Under the pieces are notes generated by a model. It saw only the letters and a list, made by a program, of their open reading frames with translations, was not told where the DNA came from and did no database searches. A stretch of DNA of 46,349 bases from Aequorivita xiaoshiensis. Lineage in GTDB: Bacteria; Bacteroidota; Bacteroidia; Flavobacteriales; Flavobacteriaceae. The position numbers were made by a program, and so were the translations under genes. The stretch spans positions 1 through 46,349 of the forward strand of contig NZ_JAIRBB010000016.1 of assembly GCF_022008395.1 (NCBI RefSeq). The letters run 5' to 3'. Below are positions 46,034-46,349 of the stretch, piece by piece (the first letter of the stretch is position 1; each line of letters opens with the position of its first letter).

Positions 46034-46115
46034 TGTCCCCTCGAGCGCAGTCGAGAGGTCGATTTTAAGCAAGATTCGTCTTAATAAGTAGGTCTCGACT
46101 GCGCTCGACCTGACA
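46034..46115. repeat. Inverted pair of palindromic repeats (REPIN-like)
   Basis: Copy A (46034-46058) reads TGTC-CCC, then the core TCGAGCGCAGTCGAGA, then GG. Copy B (46115-46091, minus strand) reads TGTC-AGG, the identical 16-base core, then CC. The flanking bases change together (CC...GG versus GG...CC), so each copy keeps its own pairing. A 30-base AT-rich spacer (46061-46090) separates them. Both are GC-rich compared with their surroundings. Very similar dispersed repeats are, to my memory, common in flavobacterial genomes. Confidence 0.85.
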
Positions 46116-46142
46116 CGTAAATGTTAATAAAACCTGTTCTAA

Positions 46143-46349
46143 ATGAAATCATATTACATTTACTTATTAGAATGTTCCGATGGTTTACTATATACGGGAC
46201 TTACGAATAACATTTCAAGGAGATTTAATGAACATCAACTTGGTAAAAATAAATCTTGTTTCACATACAAACGAAGACCTTTAAAATTAATATTTCATCA
46301 AGAGTTCAATGATATAGAACAGGCTATATATTTCGAGAAAAAAATAAAA
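46143..46349 (+). CDS. GIY-YIG nuclease domain protein, cut by the window end
   Basis: Sixty-nine residues are visible and the frame is open at the window edge. The domain has YYIYLLEC for GIY, LYTGLT for YIG, the catalytic arginine region NISRRFNEH, and the late helix AIYFEKKIK carrying the conserved Glu. It matches the small UvrC/YhbQ-like single-domain nucleases, usually about 80-100 aa, so only a short end is missing. The start ATG is 27 bases after the inverted repeat pair. The substrate is unknown; a role with the repeats is inferred from position. Confidence 0.88.
   Translation, partial: MKSYYIYLLECSDGLLYTGLTNNISRRFNEHQLGKNKSCFTYKRRPLKLIFHQEFNDIEQAIYFEKKIK

Follow-up and report, generated by a model that had tools for sequence, protein, structure and literature searches.

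Two kinds of repetitive extragenic palindromic sequences (REPs) are among the closest described relatives of the element reported here. In the systems formed by inverted REP pairs (REPINs) and REP-associated tyrosine transposases (RAYTs; the system is also called a REPtron and the enzyme TnpA-REP), the gene is flanked by its own repeats, several repeat types occur per genome and the repeats covary with the enzyme (in part PMC6006769). The CGTC REPs, in print since 2013, are described in PMC3733652 as apparently without a dedicated transposase, with the tag CGTC (often TGTC or CCTC), an 8–9 bp stem beginning with A-T pairs and a CCA tail; they form head-to-head dimers, and their reported hosts include Bacteroidetes, alpha-Proteobacteria and Neisseriae. 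A full-text listing of that paper gives no occurrence of the term giy-yig, and a full-text literature search, conducted mostly at title level and no proof of absence, showed no title linking GIY-YIG to REPs among the top titles listed. The window analysed here is the whole 46,349-nucleotide contig NZ_JAIRBB010000016.1 (C7) of Aequorivita xiaoshiensis, at the right-hand end of which an inverted REP pair precedes a small GIY-YIG nuclease gene. Sequence comparison with other such loci leads us to conclude with high confidence that GIY-YIG nucleases of this kind partner dedicated cognate REPs, a proposal that we regard as well supported. The parts of the locus, as read from the sequence, are:

46034..46059, plus strand: left REP, TGTC-CCC-TCGAGCGCAGTCGAGA-GGT, an imperfect palindrome with the TGTC tag and CC/GG neighbours (sequence and inverted-repeat search)
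46041..46056, plus strand: 16-base core, TCGAGCGCAGTCGAGA (sequence and pattern count)
46060..46089, no strand: REPIN spacer, 30 bases (sequence)
46090..46115, minus strand: right REP, AGG-TCTCGACTGCGCTCGA-CCT-GACA, an inverted copy with GG/CC neighbours and a GACA (TGTC) end (sequence and inverted-repeat search)
46093..46108, minus strand: 16-base core, the exact reverse complement of the left core (sequence and pattern count)
46034..46115, no strand: complete REPIN, repeated (83 bp, 99%) 3' of the GIY-YIG gene on contig C6 (C6:47650-47732)
46143..46349, plus strand: small GIY-YIG nuclease gene, 5' portion of 69 codons, with the remainder on contig C6
44824..45978, plus strand: putative purK, 384 aa, the upstream neighbour of the unit (open reading frame list)

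The initial annotation of this DNA had pointed to the inverted pair, with its identical 16-base core and TGTC outer ends, and to the nuclease gene 27 bases past it, and both are confirmed. The core pattern, with at most one mismatch, matches twice in the window, compared with 0.01 matches expected by chance; an inverted-repeat search recovers the pair as 36-nt arms with 75% complementarity. The open reading frame that starts at 46143 and runs off the window matches PF01541 with 59.9 bits (cut-off 22.6) and has no NCBIfam match at E 0.001. Folded as DNA, the 82-nt REPIN strand gives −21.5 kcal/mol (z −5.4), and none of 200 shuffles is as good. The core neighbours, CC...GG in one REP and GG...CC in the other, had been described as compensatory; this holds for the letters only, since these neighbours are unpaired in the predicted fold of the pair.

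The window ends at a contig break within the nuclease gene. Contig C6 overlaps C7 by 63 identical bases and holds the remainder of the gene, a second REPIN in direct orientation and then purE, so that the order of the complete unit, with the join inferred from this overlap, would be purK-REPIN-GIY-REPIN-purE (the neighbours being what we take to be purK and purE). Sequence matches in the PDB include entries 1zg2 and 1ywl (UPF0213/YhbQ-type; E values of 4.1e-11 and 9.5e-11, respectively) and, like the Pfam match, indicate a GIY-YIG fold; the motif residues Y, Y, G, R, E and K are conserved at 1.00 (rounded) in 229–241 intact GIY-YIG reading frames. The exact core occurs 11 times in the 3.06 Mb A. 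xiaoshiensis genome (G000) and the reversed core not at all; six of the 11 form three close inverted pairs, two of which flank the nuclease gene. Two further small GIY-YIG genes in the same genome (C11, at 283 and 681 kb) are each flanked on both sides by a different palindrome, whose hairpin overlaps the 3' end of the gene.

Repeats on both sides of the gene are common among GIY-YIG loci. A word of at least 12 bases is shared by both flanks in 61 of 80 named loci, compared with 41 of 2753 control windows in which the same flank geometry was shifted elsewhere within those loci; the 80 are the best of at least 552 and include close relatives and some metagenome bins with uncertain labels. The suggestion that GIY-YIG genes are enriched beside repeats is thus borne out. 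A second pass with a hidden Markov model (HMM) gave a both-sided word in 188 of 242 genes (63/81, 111/140 and 14/21 in the three sources), 242 of 245 genes being kept after flanks shorter than 150 bp were dropped. Reading frames of more than 260 aa, matches spanning fewer than 56 model positions and duplicates of one gene were removed from the HMM set, and only stop-free reading frames of at least 60 codons entered the HMM, flank-pair, core-tie and motif counts; some of the matches listed for the genus and family are interrupted by stops and appear decayed. The both-sided words were counted without individual inspection, and they include a few duplications of another kind, for example the tandem array in locus L318. 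From a plasmid collection, 24 loci were fetched out of 55 and 33 overlapping matched records, with some near-duplicates among them: 15 share at least 16 bases between their flanks (18 of 1023 controls), three share 11–15 bases and six share none of 10 or more. Among these six are Escherichia coli yhbQ and Bacillus subtilis yazA, one locus each, which have no both-sided repeat.

The type of repeat follows the type of nuclease. For 241 GIY-YIG genes (cores of less than 60 aa dropped) we counted pairs that share a 13-mer in their non-coding flanks. Between genera such sharing is rare at low identity (35/6556 below 35% and 169/3213 at 40–45%) and rises to 837/1572 at 60–70%, 441/573 at 70–80% and 70/71 above 80%; at 70% identity or more it is seen in 511 of 644 pairs. 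Paralogues within one genome that are less than 40% identical share a 13-mer in one of 82 pairs; the counts are 1/13 at 45–50%, 2/24 at 50–60%, 1/6 at 60–70% and 0/1 at 70–80%, and all 18 pairs above 80% share one, these being in good part tandem copies, many from L318. Comparison of upstream with downstream flanks rises alike (385/573 at 70–80% identity), which collinear transfer explains less easily. The Mantel correlation between nuclease identity and flank sharing is 0.468, the largest of 500 permutations giving 0.068. With words that occur on both sides of their own gene, none of 69 same-genome pairs below 60% identity share, compared with 786 of 1637 cross-genus pairs at 60% or above. 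The window core itself flanks all seven genes with at least 80% identity to the window nuclease (all at one locus of the genus) and nine of the 18 at 65–80% (in nine other genera), falling to 2/27 at 55–65%, 1/87 at 45–55% and 0/106 below (3/220 in all). The covariation is well supported by these comparisons, and on our reading every lineage of the nuclease is paired with a palindrome of its own. A system parallel to REPIN/RAYT had been proposed for the locus. That proposal is partly supported by the flanking repeats and their covariation with the nuclease, as seen in the both-sided counts above and in the comparisons across genera; cutting or spreading of the repeats by the nuclease is predicted.

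Repeat abundance agrees with this association at one level and not at another. Across 149 Flavobacteriaceae genomes, the mean number of window (type B) cores is 6.25 in the 56 genomes with a close GIY-YIG match (E of 1e-20 or better), 1.59 in the 44 with a weak match and 1.37 in the 49 with none at 1e-8; the corresponding means for a second core, type A, are 4.77, 0.82 and 0.29. The expectation that repeats are commoner where the nuclease is present thus holds in the family and fails within the genus, as is taken up below.

Filled and empty sites could also be compared, as had been suggested. Among 27 purK loci of the genus, six have a GIY-YIG gene and type-B cores beside purK; by pattern, the cores lie on both sides in five (in G000 by way of contig C6) and only upstream in L153, and one of the six genes is interrupted by a stop (G167). 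Five of the 27 have one or more cores in a gap without the nuclease gene (in G156 a GIY-YIG gene lies past purE) and 16 have neither; two of the loci, that of G000 and L158, end short of purE. In G157, the nearest relative (97%) and one of the five with cores but no gene in the gap, a single REPIN stands where G000 has REPIN-GIY-REPIN. The gap after purK holds assorted other reading frames in L151, L155, L157–L159, L161, L162, L165, L167, L174 and L175, and may therefore be an insertion hot spot. Within the genus, 51 of 80 cross-genome GIY-YIG pairs with at least 70% identity share flanking DNA, and one nuclease type with five members in five genomes is found in five different contexts. Outside the family, Azospirillum lipoferum has a GIY-YIG gene with complete CGTC...GACG REPINs on both sides between sufB and sufC, and the sufB-sufC gap in A. 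oryzae, A. ramasamyi and strain B510 is 87, 91 and 129 bases, respectively, with no unit; nor was a unit seen there in A. argentinense (not annotated), and no CGTC repeat lies at sufB-sufC in any of the four congeners examined. Shinella PSBB067 has a GIY-YIG gene between sufB and sufC too, with another repeat type. Units with different REPs thus occupy one operon gap in L255 and L208 (Shinella PSBB067 and A. lipoferum, respectively), and repeated insertion into this gap is possible.

Our favoured explanation is that the nuclease mobilizes the repeats; we take it as the best explanation and, judging from the sequences, as somewhat probable. On this view the locus would represent one instance of a unit made up of REPs and a nuclease, in which two complete REPINs in direct orientation enclose a small GIY-YIG gene encoding a single domain. 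The cognate REP pair would form a hairpin or cruciform, and the nuclease would recognize this structure and nick or cut it near the TGTC/CGTC tag; host repair would then copy the REPs to new places, and now and then the whole REPIN-gene-REPIN unit, with its two outer REPINs providing the homology. Because DNA hydrolysis by GIY-YIG enzymes does not pass through a covalent intermediate, as it does in HUH enzymes, strand transfer of the TnpA-REP type is not expected and repair would have to complete the reaction. Repeats on both sides of the gene, covariation, dispersed copies, presence and absence of the unit at one site and conserved motif residues in intact reading frames are all observed; binding, cleavage and cleavage as the cause of spread are what we infer beyond them. 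Whether GIY-YIG nucleases are, further, the missing dedicated enzymes of a CGTC/TGTC-tagged REP superfamily across several phyla is to our mind an even question. If this reading is right, there is a second, independently evolved and non-HUH route by which bacterial genomes come to produce and maintain repeated palindromes, a role for a common group of small nucleases, and many natural nuclease-hairpin pairs whose specificities could be read out; if small GIY-YIG nucleases are the partners, cognate and non-cognate pairs would allow a direct test of which enzyme serves the CGTC REPs.

Several results weigh against mobilization by the nuclease, or against the generality of the association. The repeats are few (the 11 exact cores mentioned above), and the left and right REPs fold weakly when taken singly (−3.6 and −2.1 kcal/mol, z −1.1 and −0.4, with 25 and 61 of 200 shuffles as good, respectively). 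The window core is present in all 28 genomes of the genus, including four without a GIY-YIG match, so that the count test does not separate genomes with and without the gene within the genus. Of the 20 family genomes with at least eight window cores, four have a weak GIY-YIG match only and three (with nine, 25 and nine copies) have no small GIY-YIG gene at 1e-8; gene loss may account for repeats in such genomes. No both-sided 12-base word was found in 19 of the 80 named loci, and words of at least 12 bases, of other kinds, also occur on both sides in seven of 30 loci of Y1 transposase genes. Same-genome nuclease pairs at 40–45% identity share a 13-mer in 5/26 cases, above the cross-genus level at that identity; the pairs are not independent, and sharing at high identity may partly reflect transfer of whole units. 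Lastly, the window-type gene keeps one context in the seven genus genomes examined that have it.

The main rival is a homing-type selfish gene, in which gene-free REP or REPIN sites are cut by the nuclease and the gene is copied into them when they are repaired on a REPIN-gene-REPIN template, the repeats being landing sites and leftovers and not cargo. The position of the gene between two complete direct REPINs, with the one-REPIN state at the same site in G157, fits this, as do the five contexts of one nuclease type and the adjacent duplicate GIY-YIG genes of some genomes. An insert normally disrupts its homing site, however, whereas both flanks here are complete REPINs, and at the position of the A. 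lipoferum unit the four congeners examined show no CGTC repeat; by itself homing also leaves the first spread of the REPs unexplained, and we consider it unlikely while giving it real weight. A passenger or cis-regulatory role, in which another enzyme spreads the palindromes and the nuclease gene uses them only as terminators or mRNA hairpins, would suit the hairpins that overlap the 3' ends of the two other A. xiaoshiensis genes and the dispersed copies in genomes without a detected GIY-YIG gene. It predicts neither copies on both sides of the gene nor a repeat whose sequence changes with the nuclease from genus to genus and is unlike in most pairs of diverged paralogues within one genome, and appears improbable to us.

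Ordinary REPINs spread by a RAYT (an HUH/Y1 transposase), with the nuclease as a bystander, are disfavoured and have very little left to recommend them. The genome does hold two Y1 matches over the Pfam cut-off. The one looked at, however, is flanked by other palindromes and is an IS200 transposase by NCBIfam, scoring 19.3 bits with the REP-transposase model, whose cut-off is 80; among 30 Y1 loci, a single one has a GIY-type core within 400 bp. Repeat counts in the family genomes do not differ with Y1 presence (1.95 versus 2.20 for type A, p 0.65; 4.5 versus 2.75 for type B, p 0.34), and 11 of the 15 genomes with at least eight type A copies have no Y1 match. Chance or an assembly artefact, which the contig break inside the gene might have suggested, is refuted by the expectation of 0.01 core matches and by other genomes in which single contigs show the same arrangement.

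The nuclease-repeat unit thus resembles REPIN/RAYT in its inverted REP pair, in the enzyme gene flanked by its own repeats, in the several repeat types per genome and in covariation of repeat and enzyme; it differs in the enzyme (GIY-YIG, PF01541, not HUH/Y1, PF01797), in the tag (TGTC/CGTC, not GTAG) and in its low copy number. CGTC/TGTC-tagged repeats flank GIY-YIG genes in several alpha-Proteobacteria, Neisseria and Planktothrix; those in Azospirillum, Shinella, Rhizobium, Sphingobium and Neisseria look similar to CGTC REPs, the tag at the locus being CGTC in the first four, CCTC-like in Methylobacterium and TGTC in the window. The Azospirillum repeat follows the CGTC stem and tail rules by eye and folds with an 8-bp stem. 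The window REP shares the tag and the pairing but differs in the stem, with no A-T start and no CCA tail, and is therefore not filed under CGTC-1 to -4; from its sequence we class it as similar to the CGTC REPs and not a member. The want of a linked tyrosine transposase is a further likeness, tested for types A and B in Flavobacteriaceae. In eight plasmid records, the scope of the alpha-Proteobacteria counts, one CGTC pattern gave 6, 8, 7, 9, 22 and 2 copies on six and none on two (reversed control, 0), with the copies close to the GIY-YIG gene on the Rhizobium and Neorhizobium records. Enrichment of the tag near shared words is weak (269 of 380 segments versus a 39% background in the same flanks) and was not used as proof because of this high background.

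The UPF0213/YhbQ-type proteins have the same single domain as the window nuclease, but the yhbQ and yazA loci examined lack its both-sided repeat. Free-standing GIY-YIG homing endonucleases are likewise encoded by small nuclease genes, and the location between genes of conserved operons (purK-purE and sufB-sufC) recalls them; the flanks in G000 and A. lipoferum are complete REPINs and not the halves of a broken target.

Some further loci are worth recording. In Planktothrix (L256, 2998–3282) the gene for an MmeI-type enzyme and the DISARM gene drmA enclose a GIY-YIG gene that has TGTC-type repeats. REPs extend into the ends of genes in L027 (1314–1658) and L218 (3848–4243), where they are read as part of the protein, either as a C-terminal tail or as an N-terminal extension in the annotation. 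At the left edge of the window contig (8–180, minus strand) lies part of a further small GIY-YIG gene, which scores 18.4 bits and falls short of the Pfam cut-off; it adjoins a stretch that is tRNA-like by eye, with a long palindrome, and a tRNA gene at this end was rejected as ARAGORN calls none. L318 (1349–3400, from G152) holds five 82-aa GIY-YIG genes in tandem beside a tRNA-Val gene; its intergenic stretches are tRNA-like, with a CCCGAA/TTCGGG-type hairpin as the anticodon arm, and two are called tRNA-Gln by ARAGORN; this array looks like a second, tRNA-linked kind of GIY-YIG element.
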